64,000 nucleotides of DNA, taken from Bryum argenteum (lineage: Eukaryota; Streptophyta; Bryopsida; Bryales; Bryaceae). Numbering within the stretch: position 1 is the stretch's first letter; every line of letters begins with the position of its first letter. Below are positions 5,217 to 61,530 of the stretch, one piece after another. Made by a program: the position numbers and the translations under genes. The notes beneath the pieces are model-generated. The model saw nothing but the letters and a program-made list of their open reading frames with translations. It made no database searches and was not told the DNA's origin. The DNA is taken from NCBI GenBank assembly GCA_037043015.1, contig CM073327.1, positions 14,428,727 through 14,492,726 of the forward strand, in the 5' to 3' direction.

Positions 5217-6145
5217 GGAAGAAGTAAATCGGTAGAGGCGATATATAAAGACGAAATTTGTGAATAGCAAGTGTTATGGGACCTCTTGTACACGTCTGTA
5301 AAGATTTTAGAAGATATACATGAAGTTTGAGTACATTATTCTTGAAATCAGTGAAGTCCTAGTTTTAGTTTTGATCGCAGTCTCACTTTTGTTCTCTTAT
5401 TGTTCCAATGCAAGAATCGTACGAAAATCTCAACATTTGGATTTGTTAGCACTGACCCATATAACAAGCATGAAGCATGATACCTCCCAATCTGTATGTC
5501 TCCTAATTTATGTCTTAAAATCATGTTCTGATATGAAAACTGCAGAATTTACATCTCAAATGCCTATTTTGATTTCAAGTTTGAGTTCGGAAGTCACAAG
5601 GTATCATTGATACATAGGCTCAAGATCAAATTGAGTTGTTAGAGAAGGTGAGTGAAATGGGGGATGAAAATTTTGGGTTTCTTTACAAAGCATTCCATAG
5701 AATGGCTGTAGAATTTGCGATCAAGTGAGAGGATTCATTTGTGGACCCACGAGATGCCAAATTTAAACTCGTTGAAAATATGTGTCATTCTACCTGCCTT
5801 GGGAGCAACACCCTCACACACAAGGAACGTGGAAGTATAAATTTTCTAGATTCGGAATATATCAGTTGAGCAAAAGGGTGGCTAATAATGCCATGACCTG
5901 GACTCTCAACTTTTCAATAGAATCAGCGAGTTGCTTTACCCTAATCTTTCAACTGTATTCTTTTTAAAAGTACAATTTAACCATGATATTACTCTCCAAT
6001 GATTCCAGGTAGGAGTTTCTTTCTGCAATTTTTCATCAACAACGGCATTCGTCAATGTCCATGAAAATATGCGCGATTTTGGAAATTCCAAAACACGAGA
6101 TGTATCCACAAAACCAACATGAATGAATGAGTATCCTCTCAAATC
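5217..6145. other. AT-rich intergenic sequence, no gene seen
   Basis: Only short open frames without recognisable motifs occur on either strand. I saw no repeat shared with the rest of the window before the inverted-repeat arm begins. Confidence 0.5.
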
Positions 6146-8485
6146 CAGCATCCCAGGCTGGAATAACAAGACATTCAACAATTGGTGACCATCCAATTTC
6201 TATTATAAAAGTGGGCTACTGATCTTCAGTCCCTGAAATCAGTAGTCCCAAAGAGCTGTCTGTGCACGGCACTATCATCATGTTGATGCGGATGTTGCTT
6301 CACTTTCAAACACAGCTCATACTCATCCTCATGGTCTCCAAATCGGAGCCTGAATCTTCAAAACCACCTTCACTATCTCTTTTTTTGTGACTACTGACAT
6401 TTTGCTCATCATCAAACTTCTTCATACTTTAGGAGATATTCACTGTCAAAGTTTGAAAGCACTATTGAAAGCTGCCCAAAATTGTTTGGTTTGAGAGGTC
6501 TATATGCTCATTATTTCTCATCATTTGCTTGGGATTGATTACAATGCAGAAACTTCAAAAATTCATCTAAAATGGTCCCATTTACAATGTATTTTGACAA
6601 CCTTGGGCCTTTCAGGGTTAAAGTTTACAAGATTCTCATATTGTGATAGGTGCCTCTTTGGGCATGCTGCCATTGACTCTATTCCTAGAATATGATGTTA
6701 AATTATTCTTTTGCAGGTTGTAGAGTTTTCTTAATGTAATGCGACATGCTGAAGTACCTCTTTTATATGCATGAGAAATAAAACTCAAAAAAAGGTAAGA
6801 TCTTTATCTTTGGTGAATTTTGAATTGTTGTGTTCTAATTCACAATGGTAGATTTTTAAGAACATAGGAGCACATATTGCAGTTTTGGGTAGATTTCACC
6901 ATATCCAAATTGTGTCCTACAACTCAGAGAATGATTTTCTCTTAATTTTTCACACTATATTCAACACATGGACAAATACCATTCATCAATGACAAAGTCA
7001 TCGTGTATGAAGGGAGAGTGCTCTAAATTGGAGCAGTACCATTAAATGGAGCTTTAGACTTCTTCACCCACATGTACTTATGATTTTTTCAATTCAGCAG
7101 TACCATGAACTCCTTGTGGACATTTAGATTTCAGCACCATTTTAGAGACACCAATCAAAAAATTCATAACAAATTGTGAAAGAGTTCAAGAATGATAAAT
7201 CCACTTTGACCATCCTTCCACTTACTTTGAATTCCCATGCACAACAATTGCTTACACTATATACCTCGTGTGGGGCAACTTCAAAAAGGGACTCCCACCT
7301 GGAATCAGCAGAGAACAACATCTGCGAAAAGTGCTTTTGGGGAAGATTAAAGAAATATTATAGTTCATCAATCTTGCTTTTGTACTGGAAAGAATACAGT
7401 TGGAAGACATCTAACAGTAACTAGTAAAAGCAAGATCATGGCATGTTGTGTTGGTTTCTGTTGGCCACCCCTCCACATTCGTGATTGGGATCCACAAAAG
7501 TTTCACATCTTTTCGATCTGATGTTGGTTGTCTTACATGACACACTTTCGGTAATGTCTGTCTAAATTGTCGTATTTGACATGTCGGCTCGACGGTAATG
7601 TCCAACCATACTAGAATATGCGTAGTAAAAACATGGACATTCGTCTGCCTCCTCCGAGGGGCAAATATGTATCTGATATGTCGTGTTAATCTGACGTTCA
7701 ACAGTGTTGCATAAGACAACCATGGTTAGAAATGACATAATCTTTAAAATGGCATCTCATCTCATGGGTTCCACGGAAATATTCTTAATCCCATTCAAGC
7801 ATTCGCTATGGTCAAAAATTCCTATTTAGGTCAACCTGTTTCAAAGGTGTATATTAACCCCTACAGTTTCAAGGCACTATTTGCATGGCTTAAGTTTACC
7901 CTTGATATTGTCTTCTTCTTTCAATGCAAGGTGAGACTTTTTCATTTTTATGATTGATTTGGAAGTAACTATGTAACCGTTAAAATCTTGTACTAAACTT
8001 GGACACCAAATCTTAAACCCAAATTTGTGAGATCATAAAATAATAGCCTTCAGAGTTAAAATAAATTAACTTCTTTTTCTTTTTTGCCTTATTGTGAAAA
8101 AAGAGAAAGTAATGTTTTTTTTAGGGCCAAAAGAATCAAACCATTTTTAGAGCCAAAAGAATCAAACCATTTCTAGAGGTAAATATGACTTGAGGTTCTT
8201 CACATTCTCCTTCCTATGAGGATAGAATTTTACCTTTGCAAATGTAAATCGTCGCAAAAGAAGGTGGTTTTGAAGATTCAGACTTCGATTTGGAGACCAT
8301 GAGGATGAGTATGAGCTGTGTTTGAAAGTGAAGCAACATCCGCATCAACATGATGATAGTGCCGTGCACAGACAGCTCTTTGGGACTACTGATTTCAGGG
8401 ACTGAAGATCAGTAGCCCATTTTTATAATAGAAATTGGATGGCCACCAATTGTTGAATGTCTTGTTATTCCAGCCTGGGATGCTG
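6146..8485. repeat. Long inverted repeat: arms 6146-6370 and 8261-8485, 1.9-kb spacer
   Basis: The reverse complement of 6146-6370 matches 8261-8485 almost base for base, with only a few mismatches. Shared blocks include GAGGATGAGTATGAGCTGTG and CATCAACATGATGATAGTGC. The spacer is AT-rich with no recognisable protein. Part of it (about 6420-6600) resembles 63495-63650 near the right edge, so the spacer is itself repetitive. No target-site duplication is evident at the outer edges. It may be a foldback element or an inverted duplication, and a transcript across it could form a long hairpin RNA. Confidence 0.85.
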
Positions 8486-8605
8486 CCATTGATTCATTCA
8501 TGCTTACTGGATTGATGTGATGTATTCATTAACTATTCAACCCATTCAGAGTATCATTGGTTCTTACACATGATGTTTGGAGATTATGTGGGCACCCTTA
8601 AACTA

Positions 8606-15348: not shown

Positions 15349-15577
15349 CACTACACTAAATTTGATAATTAGTGTTAGATTATTATAAGATTTGAAAATG
15401 CTATAAGTTTTTACTTTTGTTTAAAAAATTTACCAAGAGCATTGATTCTGATACTATATAAGGACCCCCATCTTGGCCAATATAGTGGGTAAAATTATTG
15501 AACAACAATAAAAACTTATAACATGTTTATGTAAATTAGTGTATTTAACACTAATTATCAAATTTAGTGTAGCAGTG
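15349..15577. mobile_element. CACTA-like MITE, copy 1
   Basis: The inverted termini contain CACTAAATTTGATAATTAG and the inverse, ending CAAATTTAGTG. A second copy lies in opposite orientation at 44964-45189, with the same internal sequence (the run around GGACCCCCATCTTGGCCAA). Edges are uncertain by a few bases because the termini are palindromic. Confidence 0.75.
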
Positions 15578-16122
15578 AGAGGCTCAAGAGAAGATACATT
15601 TGAGCCATGACAGAATCTCATAAAATAATCATGATTTATTTATTTGTTTGTTGACGCTAGCCTTTATACCTTAAGCAATCTAGGGAAGTTCCCAGGGCTA
15701 CATCTTGTGCCATGTATGTTCTTCAATCTAGTACAAAATAAAGTACAAAATGGCACTAAAAGTGACGTTCATAGTGACTTGTTCATAATGACAAAGAGTG
15801 CTTGTTTTAATTTCCAATGACATCAAAATAAGTATCAATAAGATGCCCTTTCTAAGTTCTTTCATCAATAGGTACCTTATGAACTATAAAAAAGAAATGT
15901 ATATTTTTTAGACATTTGGATTGAAGTACTTCAATCCCATACGATGATGAAGTATGATGTCTCAAGTTATATATTCAAGAAATCCGAGAACCAAGGATAT
16001 AGAAATGCACTATAGCTCAAGACTTGAAACCTTCATATGAGAATTATGCACTTATAAATGAGAACAATTCAAAATGAATCCATATTTTTGTAATAATTAT
16101 GTTCAAGCACTTCCTTGGTTTA

Positions 16123-17461
16123 CCCCTAAACGCCCGAGCCTATTTTAAGCAAAAAAGCACATTTCCATAGAAATCGTCATAGATGAAAATCAAGAGAAGC
16201 TATTAAGATCTCAACCGTACAAACTTGTAATAGACTTATCAAAGATCATGTGGACGAAAATTTGAGTTATGAGGCCTTATGGATCGGGAGATCATAACAT
16301 ATTAGTTTCAAAAACAAACTGCAAAATTTCATCATTTTCACTTTGAGGTGGAAATGCTACCAATATACCTATTGCAATTAAAAAATCACCAACTAGAAAG
16401 ATGTTCACTTTCATCTTAATAAGTCCTTTACCCAACAAAAATTCATCAAACAAATTTCTTGGCTCAAATAAAAGCCATGCAATGGTAAAAACTATCGAAC
16501 ATTTTACAAAGGAAAAGTAGTTCAAAACTAGACCCTTTGCATTCAATTTCATGCCTTATCTTCAAAACATCTTTGATCTTGTTAAGGTTTCTACCACTTA
16601 GACTAGACTCTAATTGGAGGCCATCCCAAAAATTTAAGTTGAAATCCAATGGTGGATGAGGGAGATATAGCTCGTAAAATATCATCCATTTTCTCACTTT
16701 TTCTGTTCACAAAACATCATTGCAAATCCAATAGCAAAATCATTTGGATCAAAAAACTTCTCACCAAAAAGTTGTTAACCCTTAAACGCCCTTGGGGTCT
16801 AAAACGGGCAGCCCAAAATTGGATCACAACATCTTTTGGACTTGGGCATCATGAATAGTGCACTTTTTGAACTTGGGCATCATGAATGGACCAATCAATG
16901 ATGAGCTTGCAACCTCCTACAAGGTTATGTACCACCCCAACCTACCTACCACAGTCCTTTCAAAGCACAAAATCCTTCATACAAATTGTGATTTGAATTG
17001 TAAAAATTCACTTTTTGAATGCATCATAAGATGGTGACCAGTTTGACATCAAAATATAAGTGAAAAGTTGAGTACACTGAGAGCTACAGGGAAGATTTTG
17101 TTGGAATCAAGCCCCTCGGGCTTGCTTGGGCGTTTAAGGGTTAAGAATCACCTTAATATCATGACCATGAAAAAAAAAATCATGGAAAACTACTTCTAAT
17201 TTCACATAATTGGCTTGCAATGGTAATACATGCCCCATGTTCGGAAACCCAGAAACAAGAGTTGTCTTCACTAAAGTGCATTCTATTAATTCATACTTTA
17301 TTGTATGGGCTTGAAAATTTTACAACACAAACTAGACTTGATTTGGAACCTAATCCAAGTGATTTCATCCAAAATGGACCTCGGATGAAGAAGATATGGT
17401 TTTTCAAAGTTTCTGATGTACATCCAAAATGTCGGTTTTCGACATCGTGGGCGTTTAAGGG
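16123..17461. mobile_element. TTAA-type element B, copy 1 (973 bp plus nested insertion)
   Basis: The left end CCCCTAAACGCCC and right end GGGCGTTTAAGG are inverted repeats. The right side is bordered by TTAA (17462-17465), the left by TTTA (one change). Removing the nested 362-bp element and one TTAA leaves about 973 bp, nearly equal to copy 2 (41748-42719, 972 bp). Short minus-strand open frames shared by both copies show no transposase motif, so the element appears non-autonomous. Confidence 0.85.
16779..17140. mobile_element. TTAA-type element A, copy 1 (362 bp), nested in element B
   Basis: The termini are CCCTTAAACGCCC and its exact inverse, with TTAA on each side (16775-16778 and 17141-17144). 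The sister B element carries the unfilled site, a single TTAA at 42401-42404 in identical flanking sequence (AAAGTTG|TTAA|GAATCACC). The TTAA target-site duplication is therefore directly demonstrated. A second copy of equal length lies at 26351-26712. Confidence 0.93.
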
Positions 17462-17972
17462 TTAAGTAACTATGAAATCGAGAAGTTTTGATGATAATAT
17501 TACCTGAAACCACATCCTCTACTCATAAGTACATGAGGTACATCAAATCATAAACCATTATAAATAAGAAAGAATCTAAAATACTTAAGACAATGCTCAC
17601 TTTTTGGATTGTCACCTCAATGCTTGTCACAATTATAATACTTTAGGCAAGAGATTGTTGTGATTGGGTTTAAGAAATCAGTTTGTAAATCTTTCACTCT
17701 TGCCTATATATGCTGTAATTATAGCATGGGCTAAAAGCCTTCATAACTATATGAAATATTTGTTAGAATCCTTCAAAATTGTTTTGAAAAGAAACTATGT
17801 CACATTTATTTGTAATGTGAAATTTCTTGACTCCTCAATATTTGTTAGAATAACGCCAAATCACTACATACTTCATAGAAATAGAAACTATTGTAAACAT
17901 CATGTCTTTGATATTTATGGACTTGTTATATTTAAACGATTCAATGTTACGAGTAGGTGACATTTCAAATAT

Positions 17973-23798: not shown

Positions 23799-24297
23799 GG
23801 TTGTGGCGTGTCTTTCCAACTTTCATCTTCTATTGAAAACCATGGCTAGGGCGTGTCTTTCCAACTTTCATCTTCTGTTAAAAACCATGGCTAGGGTTAA
23901 GGTTTCATTGACCAAACATTATGGGTAGGCCATACCCATTTACAAGCCATAAAGGGGCATGGGTAGGCTAGATCCATTTCAACTTGGTCCAAGAATGCCC
24001 CCTCCGACCCTAAAAAGCACTTAGATTTTCCAAAATATTATTTTCAAAACTTTAAGTCAATCGCAACCTCACATGTATAATATTCTTGTTGAATTTATTA
24101 GTTTGGGACTTTGATATTCTTCGTTGAACTCATAGATTTGACACTTTGACATTGTGTTTAAGTTCATGGCTAGATGTATTCTCATGCATGGATGAACTGA
24201 AATAGTATTATTCTTGTTAGAAAGTCTCATTTTAATTAGTTGACTTTATTAAATCTCATTGAGAAATTGTACATCTAAATGGAATCAATCCATAAAG

Positions 24298-25083
24298 TAT
24301 CAATAAGTTGCCCTTTCTAAATTCTTCCATCTATAGGAACCTTTTGAACTATAAAAATAGAATGTATAATTTTTGCCATTTGGATTAAAGTACTTCTCAT
24401 ACAATGATGAAGTATGATATTTGAAGTTAAATATTCAAGAAATCCCCGAACCAAGGATATAGAAATTATGCACTATAGCTTAAGACTTGAAACCTTCGAA
24501 TTAAGATTATGCACTTATAAATTAGAAAAATTTAAAATGAATCCATATTTTTGTAATATGTTCAAGCACTTACTTCAGTAACTATGAAATCTAGAAGTTT
24601 TGATGAGAATAATATGTGAAACCACATCTTTTACTCATAAGTACATGAGGTACATCAAATCATATATCATTATAAATAGGAAAGAATTTAAAATATTTTA
24701 GACAATGCTCACTTTTTGGATTTTTTCCTCAATGCTTGTCATAAGTATAATACTTCATGCAAGAGATCGTTGTTACAGGGTTTAAGAAATAAGTTTGTAA
24801 ATCTTTCACTTTTGCCTATATAGGCTATAATTATAACATGGGCTAAAAGCCTTCATAACTATATGAAAATCTGTTAGAATCCTTCAAATTTATTTTGAAA
24901 AGAAGCTATGTCACGTCTATTTCTAATGTGAAATTTCTTGACTCCTCAATATTTTTTAGATTAATGCCAAATCACTACACTCTCTATTGAAATAGAAACT
25001 AACGTAAACACAGTGTCTTTGATATTTATGAACTTGATATAATTAGAAGATTCAATGCTACTAGTAGGTGACATTTCAAATGT
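24298..25083. repeat. Older dispersed repeat, copy 2 (uninterrupted)
   Basis: Matches 15831-16118 joined to 17466-17972. It lacks the B element; the equivalent site reads ACTTCAGTAAC with TTCA at 24574-24577. It therefore serves as the approximate empty site for that insertion. Confidence 0.8.
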
Positions 25084-26346: not shown

Positions 26347-26350
26347 TTAA

Positions 26351-26712
26351 CCCTTAAACGCCCTTGGGGTCTAAAACGGGCAGCCCAAAATTGAATCACA
26401 ACATCTTTTGGACTTGGGCATCATGAATAGTGCACTTTTTGAACTTGGGCATCATGAATGGACCAATCAATGATGAGCTTGCAACCTCCTACAAGGTTAT
26501 GTACCACCCCAACCTACCTACCACAATCCTTTCAAAGCACAAAATCACTCATACAAATTGTGATTTGAATTGTGAAATTTCACTTTTTGAATGCATCAGA
26601 AGAAGGTGACCAGTTTGACATCAAAATATGAGTGAAATGTTGAGTACAGTGAGAGTTACAGGGAAGATTCTATTGGAATCAAGCCCCTCGGGCTTGCTTG
26701 GGCGTTTAAGGG
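26351..26712. mobile_element. TTAA-type element A, copy 2 (362 bp)
   Basis: Same length and nearly the same sequence as 16779-17140, with CCCTTAAACGCCC ends. TTAA is present on both sides (26347-26350 and 26713-26716). It sits in the decayed terminus of a B element. There is no coding sequence. Confidence 0.93.
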
Positions 26713-27149
26713 TTAAGGGATGAAGGCTCACAAAAACACTTCTTTCCAAATGACAACAAGGTATAAAAGCTTCGTACTCAAATTTAAGCACTATGGTGTT
26801 ACAATTGGTGAGAAAACTTGTACACACTACATATATAACTTAGGTACTAGATTTAACAATTTCATTTTTCAAAAGAAATCTTAAAGTAAATTATTTTAGC
26901 TTGCCTTGAAAAGACAAAGTTTTACGGTTTTAATATAAAATTGAGGCCTTCTAATTAGAGGTTATTACCATATAAGGTATTGTGCTCAAAACCATTCACT
27001 AGCTCTAGATATCGAGGCAGTGGATACGTTAAGGTTTTCACCTTCACTTTTTTATCTACTCATGGTGTACATTTTAGACTGAATGATTTAAGATATTACT
27101 GTGAATTACATTTTTTAAATTTATAGCTGCATCAAGATAATTCCAAATT

Positions 27150-41654: not shown

Positions 41655-41747
41655 TTGTGTGTTGCAAGTTTATGTAGTAATCTACATCCTTTAATGAGCT
41701 TGTTGGCTTAGCTAGTATTAAGTAACCCTATTTCATTTTAGCTTTAA

Positions 41748-42719
41748 CCCCTAAACGTCCCAACCTATTTTTAGCAGAAAAGCACATTTCCATAGAAATC
41801 ATCATAGATGAAAATCAAGAGAAGCTATTAAGATCTCAACCGTACAAACTTGTAATAGACTTATCAAAGATCATGTGGACCAGAATTTGAGTCATGAGGC
41901 CTTATAGATCGGGAGATCATAACATATTAGTTTCAAAAACAAACTGCAAAAATTTCATCATTTTCACTTTGAGGTGGAAATGCTACCAATATACCTATTG
42001 CAATTAAAAAATCACCAACTAGAAAGATGTTCACCTTCATCTTAATAAGTCCTTTACCCAACAAAAATTCATCAAAAGAATTTCTTGGCTCAAATAAAAG
42101 CCATGCAATGGTAAAAACTACCGAACATTTTACAAAGGAAAAATAGTCCAAAACTAGATCCTTTGCATTCAATTTCATGCCTTATCTTCAAAACATCTTC
42201 GATCTTGTTAAGGTTTCTACCACTTAGACTAGACTCTAATTGGAGGCCATCCCAAAAAATTAAGTTGAAATCCAACGGTGGATGAGGGAGATATAGCTCG
42301 TAAAATATCATCCATTTTCTCACTTTTTTTGTTGACAAAACATCATTGCAAATCCAATAGCAAAATCATTTGGATCAAAAAACTTCTCACTACAAAGTTG
42401 TTAAGAATCACCTTAAGATCATGACCATGAAAAAAAATCATTAAAAACTATTTTTAGTTTCACATAATTGGCTTGCAATGGTAATACATGCCCCATGTTT
42501 GGAAACCCAGAAACAAGAGTTGTCTTCACTAAAGTGCATTCCATTAATTCATACTTTATTGTATGGGCTTGAAAATTTTACAACACAAACTAGACTTGAT
42601 TTGGAACCTAATCCAAGTGATTTCATCCAAAATGGACCTCAAATGAAGAAGATATGGCTCTTCAAAGTTTCTGCCCTTCATCCAAAATGTAGAAAAACGA
42701 TATTGGGGACGTTTAGGGG
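41748..42719. mobile_element. TTAA-type element B, copy 2 (972 bp, intact)
   Basis: Ends CCCCTAAACGTCCC and GGGGACGTTTAGGGG, with TTAA on both sides (41744-41747, 42720-42723). The body matches 16123-17461 with the nested A element removed. It retains the empty A site at 42401-42404. Short minus-strand frames (for example 41933-42178) are conserved between copies but match no transposase I know. Confidence 0.93.
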
Positions 42720-42993
42720 TTAAAATAGCAAAATAGAACCAACACATAAACAATATATTTCAACCAAGTTTTAAGGTTGAGAAAACTCATTCTTTCTCTG
42801 CCTAACTTTTTGAAGGCTTGAACATTAAAAAAAAGGAGCTTTTAAATTTAAAACAAGGCAAGGTTAGTTTCAAGTAAAAAATTTCTAATTTTTTAGTTCT
42901 ACAAAAGAAGAAAGATAGGAAGAGAAGTAATTATTGATGATCATAACCAAATGCAAATATGGAGTGGATAAAAGATGAGTCATTGATCTTTAA

Positions 42994-43233
42994 CCCCTAA
43001 AGGTCCAAGAAAGCGAATACTGCTTTTTGGAGTCCAAAATTCAGCCAACTTTGACCATTAAAATCTCACAAATGAAGAAGAATCAACGGTTCAATTTTGG
43101 CAAGTGAGTGGAAGGTTAAGTTAACTTCAAGATCCTACGGTTGGATCTTCCAAATAATTATTAGATTGAGAGTTTTAGGCCTGAAGTAAGGGAATGTCCA
43201 TTTTTACAATTTTGCATCAAGAACCTTTAGGGG
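42994..43233. mobile_element. TTAA-type element D (240 bp)
   Basis: Ends CCCCTAAAGGTCC and GAACCTTTAGGGG, flanked by TTAA at 42990-42993 and 43234-43237. The interior is unrelated to A or B. Same termini and target as those families, so it is a third member of the group. Confidence 0.88.
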
Positions 43234-44963: not shown

Positions 44964-45189
44964 CACTACACTAAATTTGATAATTAGTGTTAGATACACT
45001 AATTTACATAAACATGTTATAAGTTTTTACTGTTGTTCAATAATTTTACCCACTATATTAGCCAAGATGGGGGTCCTTATATAGTATGAGAATCAATGCT
45101 CTTGGTAAATTTTGTAAACAAAAGTAAAAACTTATAGCATTTTCAAATCTTATAATAATCTAACACTAATTATCAAATTTAGTGTAGTG
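44964..45189. mobile_element. CACTA-like MITE, copy 2, inverted relative to copy 1
   Basis: Reverse-complement match to 15349-15577. Ends CACTACACTAAATTTG and CAAATTTAGTGTAGTG. If the element is taken as ACTACACT to AGTGTAGT, both sides show GCC as a 3-bp duplication. No coding sequence. Confidence 0.8.
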
Positions 45190-60754: not shown

Positions 60755-61229
60755 TGGTTTGGTTTGTGGGTTGTGCGCAAAAAGTGTGGGCGAAATTCCT
60801 TTCGATGGTTTCAGGAATCAGAGGCTCGGTCGAGGCATTGGATTTGGTTAACGAGGTGATTGCGGGGTTTGACGATTGTCCCTCCCTGCTCTGGGAGAAC
60901 GTGATTGTTGCTGTGGAGCTCGCTGGTAGGGTACAGTAGTGGTAGATTTGGTGGAATCTAGGGAGGGTGAAGATGTGGTGCCCGGGTCAAGGGGGTACAC
61001 CAGGCTAGGCAGCATGGAGTTGGTCGTCGTGACACATGGGTGGCATCAATTGGGGCTATGCCGTCATGAGGGGACCCATTGGGGAGTTGACTCATGAAAA
61101 GAAAAAGAAAAGCCCAATTGCAAAGAAGATGCCAATTACCTCAATTTCGTTAAAATGGCATTTTGGGTAATGTAAATTGCTCCAAATTGGTGCCACCATG
61201 TTGGTTGGAGGAAGCTAGTCTCAAATTAA
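60755..61229. other. ERD2-like upstream region
   Basis: Leader and promoter side of the ERD2-like gene. 61014-61190 is one half of a direct repeat whose other half is 62476-62660 (shared ATCAATTGGGGCTATGCCGT). No gene is seen. Confidence 0.55.
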
Positions 61230-61530
61230 CCTCTAAACGTCCCGTGTCGAAAAACGACGTTTTGGATGAAGTGTAGAAACTTTGTAGAGCCATAGTTTCT
61301 TCATTTGGACTTTGTTTTTGACGAAATCACTTGGGTATGGTCACAAATCAAGTCTAGTTTGTGTGGTAGAAATTTCAAACGCATTCAATGTAGTATGAAA
61401 AAATGGCATGCATTTTAGTGAAGGCAGGTTTTGTTTTTGGGTTTTCAAACAAGGAGCATGTTTAACTATTGCAAGCCAATTATGTGAAACTATAAATAGT
61501 TCTCCATGAAATTGTTTTTGAAGAAGTTCA
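61230..61530. mobile_element. Degenerate TTAA-type element B end, inverted
   Basis: TTAA (61226-61229) followed by CCTCTAAACGTCCC, then the reverse complement of the right half of element B (GAAAAACGACGTTTTGGATG; GACGAAATCACTTGGGTATG). The opposite end was not found. Confidence 0.75.

Follow-up and report, generated by a model that had tools for sequence, protein, structure and literature searches.

A nest of TTAA-flanked elements in the window

The window analysed here is a stretch of 64,000 nucleotides from the moss Bryum argenteum (C7:14428727-14492726 of the 258.8-Mb assembly), in which element A lies inside element B and B lies inside an older repeat (Table 1). Outer B spans 16123-17461 and measures 973 bp without A and one TTAA. 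The first-pass annotation had described A as a 362-bp element with TTAA on both sides, nested in B, and this is confirmed by the coordinates and by a B copy without A. When the flanks of A were joined and aligned to B at 41748-42719, one TTAA replaced TTAA-A-TTAA, which leaves a clean empty site. The annotation had read this comparison as directly showing that TTAA was duplicated; the clean single-TTAA site stands, but a duplication of 2 bp (TA) would give identical window sequences. It had also described a three-level nest with both empty sites present. The nest and the empty site of A hold, and the older repeat itself is real, but the supposed single TTAA at the older-repeat site without B reads TTCA. 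In addition, outer B is bordered on its left by TTTA (TTTA|CCCC at the junction) instead of TTAA, and the older-repeat copies with and without B differ by about 8 bp at this junction. Because of TTCA at the empty site, TTTA to the left of B and this difference, the older site alone shows no TTAA duplication. The nesting suggests that B entered the older repeat and that A entered B afterwards.

Table 1. Positions of the elements, their target sites and their empty sites within the window
Feature	Position	Strand	Description
Older repeat that received B, left part	15830..16116	.	86% to 24295-24575
Outer B, left part	16123..16778	+	starts CCCCTAAACG; flank TTTA at 16119-16122; 16119-16778 96% to 41743-42404
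TTAA target-site duplication of A, left	16775..16778	.	sequence reading and empty-site alignment
Element A, non-autonomous, inside B	16779..17140	+	362 bp; 13-bp inverted ends CCCTTAAACGCCC; end likeness to E70, same orientation
TTAA target-site duplication of A, right	17141..17144	.	sequence reading and empty-site alignment
Outer B, right part	17145..17461	+	ends CGTTTAAGGG; flank TTAA at 17462-17465; 17140-17432 94% to 42400-42690
Older repeat that received B, right part	17462..17970	.	89% to 24574-25081
Older-repeat copy without B	24295..25081	.	junction at 24574-24577 is TTCA, not TTAA
Second A copy	26351..26712	+	TTAA at 26347-26350 and 26713-26716
Second B copy without A	41748..42719	+	972 bp; TTAA both sides
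Empty site of A within second B, one TTAA	42401..42404	.	alignment of A's joined flanks
Further 240-bp element	42994..43233	+	TTAA both sides; ends CCCCTAAAGG / CCTTTAGGGG
Partial B relative, inverted	61226..61519	-	78% to 17170-17465; end CCTCTAAACG adjoins TTAA

As to coding capacity, the annotation had stated that no transposase is encoded here, and within the seven window open frames scanned against Pfam no transposase domain was found. An open frame of 92-102 aa lies near the right end of B in both window copies (17157-17465 and 42445-42723). The window also holds repeats of other families, namely an inverted-repeat pair at 6139-6371 and 8260-8492 (1.9 kb apart) and another at 15349-15572 and 44966-45189 (29.4 kb apart), each 97-98% complementary. 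Between 22032 and 39115, blocks of about 80-300 bp recur at a spacing of roughly 6-8 kb (22-24, 28-31 and 35-39 kb), as in a diverged tandem array.

Copies and ends across the genome

The exact decamer CCCYTAAACG occurred 10,553 times in the genome (5,246 + 5,307), compared to 1,485 times (749 + 736) for the reversed pattern, an excess well above what chance would give. TTAACCCYTAAACGYCC was present 5,636 times and its form beginning with A, C or G (VTAA) 154 times, with 0 occurrences of the reversed pattern in either case. The genome-wide tabulation of flanks that the first-pass annotation had proposed thus gives TTAA in 5,636 of 5,790 ends, a tally confined to ends that read xTAA and then CCCYTAAACGYCC, a subset of the 10,553 decamers. 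Searching with A returned 2,443 first-look candidates, of which the best 40 scored at 98-100% identity; searching with B returned 6,274, of which the best 40 were scored, with full-span matches at 94-100%. Among 31 A copies, the mean pairwise divergence was 3.1%, with a maximum of 15.5%, and among 14 B copies the mean was 4.0%; both samples were chosen for their close match to the copies in the window and are hence biased.

The flanks of these copies were nearly uniform. All 31 full-length A rows, which come from best-match loci and include the window copy and two rows from one locus, have TTAA/TTAA. For B, 30 best-match loci were fetched and 16 were removed by the full-length filter; 13 of the remaining 14, one of which is the window copy, have TTAA/TTAA and one has CTAA/CTAA. 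Among 75 two-ended elements in 363,827 bases of fetched DNA (overlaps included), 66 have TTAA/TTAA and nine have other flanks (TTTT/TTAA, TTTG/TTAA, TTGA/TTAA, AATG/CATT, TTAT/TTAT, CTAA/CTAA, TTAA/TTAT, TTAA/TCAA and TCAA/TTAA), in a list which accepts ends one mismatch from the decamer and in which some rows may be mispaired.

Matching exceptional flanks and the length of the target

Genome-wide, A-sized elements had TTAA/TTAA flanks 1,144 times (the pattern is palindromic, each being present on both strands), compared to eight with CTAA/CTAA, ten with CTAA/TTAA and three with TTAA/CTAA. Independent change of the two flanks would yield 0.026 CTAA/CTAA pairs, and the Poisson chance of at least eight is about 5e-18. 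These eight places, counted without their wider flanks, might include copies of one insertion made by duplication of a larger stretch. The CTAA/CTAA flanks of the B copy L040 are a case separate from the eight, and so are the TTAT/TTAT flanks of a 225-bp relative (L017), in which the fourth base is duplicated. Since exceptional flanks match each other in all of these cases, the full 4-bp target is duplicated. The target therefore consists of four bases, for which TTAA is strongly preferred and not strictly required, and a 4-bp TTAA target-site duplication is the one expected of piggyBac.

The same flanks bear on two shorter duplications. If a Tc1/mariner-like 2-bp TA were duplicated, the element would run from ACCCYTAAACG to the complement of that sequence, and the T and A outside it would reflect a target preference; wherever the target was TTAA, this reading and the 4-bp one predict the same empty site and the same filled site. 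However, at a CTAA target a TA duplication predicts CTAA on the left with TTAA on the right, whereas eight A-sized CTAA/CTAA pairs were observed in addition to L040 and L017, and an element with the same ends (E70, below) encodes a piggyBac transposase, which makes a TA duplication very improbable. PIF/Harbinger-type elements duplicate 3 bp, TTA or TAA, both of which are contained in TTAA, and the annotation had called them formally possible at the cost of asymmetric ends. That cost remains, and a single 3-bp duplication cannot yield both CTAA/CTAA (position 1) and TTAT/TTAT (position 4); with the first and the fourth base both duplicated at exceptional targets, Harbinger-type elements are disfavoured, and we regard them as a highly unlikely source.

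piggyBac-type transposase genes in the same genome

A PF13843 profile search of the genome returned 775 candidates, of which the best 116 were scored, and all 116 were over the cut-off; the genome thus has at least 116 piggyBac-type DDE matches, compared to matches in 0 of 14 control genomes. The same assembly has 22 matches among 26 candidates for the LOB-domain family, which we take to be a land-plant/streptophyte family and which was found in 0 of 14 control genomes. It also has 90 matches among 119 candidates for the light-harvesting family, for which one of 14 controls, a cyanobacterium, was positive. The light-harvesting matches form clusters at C5:8161886-8412977, C5:14730833-14760859 and C2:25064562-25094660 and mostly cover profile positions 31-161 only; we assume that these clusters are possibly ELIP-like tandem arrays.

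At locus L070, an 897-aa open frame contains a PF13843 match (E 1.4e-82). Two known transposases match this frame: piggyBac chain 6x67 (E 2e-29), in an alignment that includes D268, D346 and D447, which we take to be the catalytic residues (DDD triad), and piggyBat 9c0f (E 7.7e-24), in an alignment that includes the Cys-rich C-terminal end of L070. Ten transposase loci were compared and form about five lineages that are 35-48% identical to one another; within lineages, identity is 72% for L072/L074, 59% for L075/L077 and 92-98% for L069/L070/L073/L078. In an alignment of five lineages, the three D columns are conserved in L070, L071, L074, L076 and L077, and the conserved C-terminal Cys pattern is present in L070, L074, L076 and L077 and absent from the open frame of L071. 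The PF13843 domain, the DDD triad and the Cys-rich C-terminal domain of piggyBac transposases were therefore all found.

The open frames extend far ahead of the DDE match, by about 425 residues in L070 (L070:1204-3897), 368 in L074 and at least 500 in L071, L076 and L077, and the Pfam scan of the L070 frame gave no match ahead of the DDE part. Between L070 and L078, dN/dS was 0.15 over the 482 codons of the DDE part and 0.25 over the 316 codons of the N-terminal part; selection thus seems to act on both. Closer copies gave higher values on few changes (0.29 and 0.43 for L070-L069, 0.60 for L070-L073).

Transposase-bearing elements and their ends

Far-side extension was made for four of the ten transposase loci (L070+L080, L069+L079, L078+L082 and L073+L081). 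The first of these, E70 (C1:23339978-23345168), reads TTAA-CCCTTAAACGCCC...GGGCGTTTAAGGG-TTAA, with 5,191 bp between the TTAAs, and carries the open 897-aa DDD frame within 13-bp inverted repeats CCCTTAAACGCCC. The second, E69, is 4,942 bp long and likewise has TTAA, a 13-bp TIR and a transposase; it is 97.7% identical to E70 over 4,530 bp, and their flanks differ. In E70 and in E69, in each of which both ends were read, the transposase gene is thus enclosed by the same termini and the same target, and A, E70 and E69 each have on both sides the 13-bp CCCTTAAACGCCC, a short inverted end starting with CCC/CCCT as in piggyBac. The first-pass annotation had predicted an autonomous partner bordered by CCCYTAAACG termini; E70, of piggyBac type with DDD, is such an element in the same genome. 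L078+L082 has a similar end pair with the decamer changed on one side, and for L073+L081 a single end was found. In all, four of the ten loci (L069, L070, L073 and L078) have an end that differs from TTAACCCYTAAACG at no more than one position and, in a search within about 1.5 kb, a two-mismatch site was found at L075 and L076 and no end site at the other four. The frame of E69 is broken, and given this the intact transposase set may be small. On one side of its transposase gene, before the element ends, E70 contains an array of 21-bp tandem repeats (L070:655-890; E70 offsets 379-614), in a region where E70 and E69 differ in length.

These elements also bear on Kolobok-type transposons, which duplicate TTAA as well. 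Their termini are given as 5'-RR and YY-3' (PMC9587614), whereas those described here run CCC...GGG, and the transposase within the same ends has PF13843 with DDD. A Kolobok origin is accordingly most improbable. Sola3 elements, which have a Sola transposase, likewise target TTAA.

The likeness of A to E70 goes beyond the TIR. Out of 50 positions compared, the right ends agree at 30 (none of 9,882 windows was as good) and the left ends at 21 (85 of 9,882 windows were as good), compared to 16 and 12, the background level, for crossed pairings of the ends of A and E70. In contrast, the ends of B agree with those of E70 at 10-15 of 50 positions, which is background, and have the terminal decamer alone in common. 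Derivation of B from E70 by internal deletion was considered and rejected, as the ends share the decamer only and interior matches are 12-15 bp, at chance level. No partner of B was found in this comparison of ends, which was made against E70, and a piggyBac partner of B is therefore putative.

It follows that B could belong to a separate TTAA-specific system that has converged on a similar decamer, with A alone being driven by piggyBac. The ends of B are indeed unlike E70 beyond the decamer, and B at 41748 differs from A at end positions 4 and 11. However, the decamer is nearly the same and so is the TTAA target, including the CTAA/CTAA exception in a B copy; some B copies have CCCTTAAACGCCC at one end, as in A; and about five piggyBac lineages among ten loci could supply the enzyme. 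We consider a separate system for B unlikely. The annotation had proposed that TTAA together with CCC(C/T)TAAACG ends resembles piggyBac, and the flanks and the E70 transposase support this, well for A and probably for B: the tie of A to piggyBac is well supported, and that of B is probable, by its terminal decamer and target alone. Taken together, these results indicate that A and B are very probably non-autonomous miniature elements (MITEs) belonging to native cut-and-paste transposons of piggyBac type in this plant genome.

Possible stacking of elements at shared targets

A-type ends (CCCTTAAACG) contain the target, and therefore the elements offer new nesting sites. The B copy L054 (C10:6308869-6309844) lies in the TTAA of another element's end, with the flanks gggcgtTTAA and TTAAgggtta. 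At L056, L064, L031 and L035, the sequence beyond the TTAA of a copy resembles the terminus of a further element, so that the two would have a single TTAA in common (taggggTTAA to the left of B and TTAAcccct to the right of A are examples), and at L065:1499-1502 one TCAA is common to two elements. This suggests that elements stack at the duplicated target.

Discussion

piggyBac is a seamless transposon tool in wide use. The transposases described here share with its superfamily (6x67/6x68; piggyBat 9c0f) the PF13843 domain, the DDD positions, the Cys-rich C-terminal end and the TTAA duplication, and the elements share short inverted ends starting with CCCT, for which CCCT and CCCTTT motifs are given in PMC12732532. 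They differ in their land-plant host, in their length near 5 kb and in the 897-aa open frame, compared to 2,074-3,465 bp and 500-725 aa in beetle piggyBac elements (PMC12732532). Residue 417 of L070 aligns to residue 121 of 6x67, which places about 300 more residues ahead of the shared part.

We propose that transposase from full-length relatives such as E70 would bind the CCCYTAAACG ends, cut the element out and insert it into a TTAA site, with the result that TTAA borders the element at both ends. The cut-and-paste step would be as in known piggyBac elements. The E70 transposase, or that of a close relative, would have moved A in trans, and another piggyBac lineage of this genome may have moved B.

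What we describe is a real piggyBac-type, TTAA-specific family in an unusual host, a land plant; piggyBac is familiar from animals, and few cases from land plants have been described. According to a 2025 account, piggyBac is only occasional in plant genomes, for example in red algae (PMC12732532), and two others list plants among piggyBac hosts (PMC10813416; PMC10140906). The fern Ceratopteris is a land plant with repeats annotated as PiggyBac (1,230 copies, 122 kb), known from a repeat table (PMC6890710). For mosses, two DNA elements are named for Physcomitrium, both Mariner (PMC7466625), and DNA transposons make up 23.68% of the Pohlia nutans assembly, in a paper whose available text has no mention of piggyBac (PMC9247546). 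In the open-licence literature covered, we came across no account of native piggyBac elements from a moss. The piggyBac-type MITEs of animals, for example those of corals (PMC2872659), are likened to A and B by description, the available text having both piggyBac and TTAA, and have other hosts.

On a wider reading, the moss would have a native piggyBac system that has been resident for long and was active until recently. It would comprise about five diverged transposase lineages with long open frames, whose N-terminal region exceeds that of the animal enzymes in length and is under selection, and it would drive thousands of TTAA-specific miniature elements. We hold the case for and against this reading to be evenly balanced. 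If it is true, then as far as the open-licence literature shows, no native piggyBac burst of a land plant has been well characterised before. A land plant with a varied resident set, including near-identical copies and open transposase frames, would widen the range in which the superfamily occurs naturally, and would let the question of horizontal transfer versus inheritance be asked. Animal-derived piggyBac has been used in plants for marker excision, according to a title cited in PMC12732532, and a moss set would be a source of candidate enzymes that already fit plant cells.
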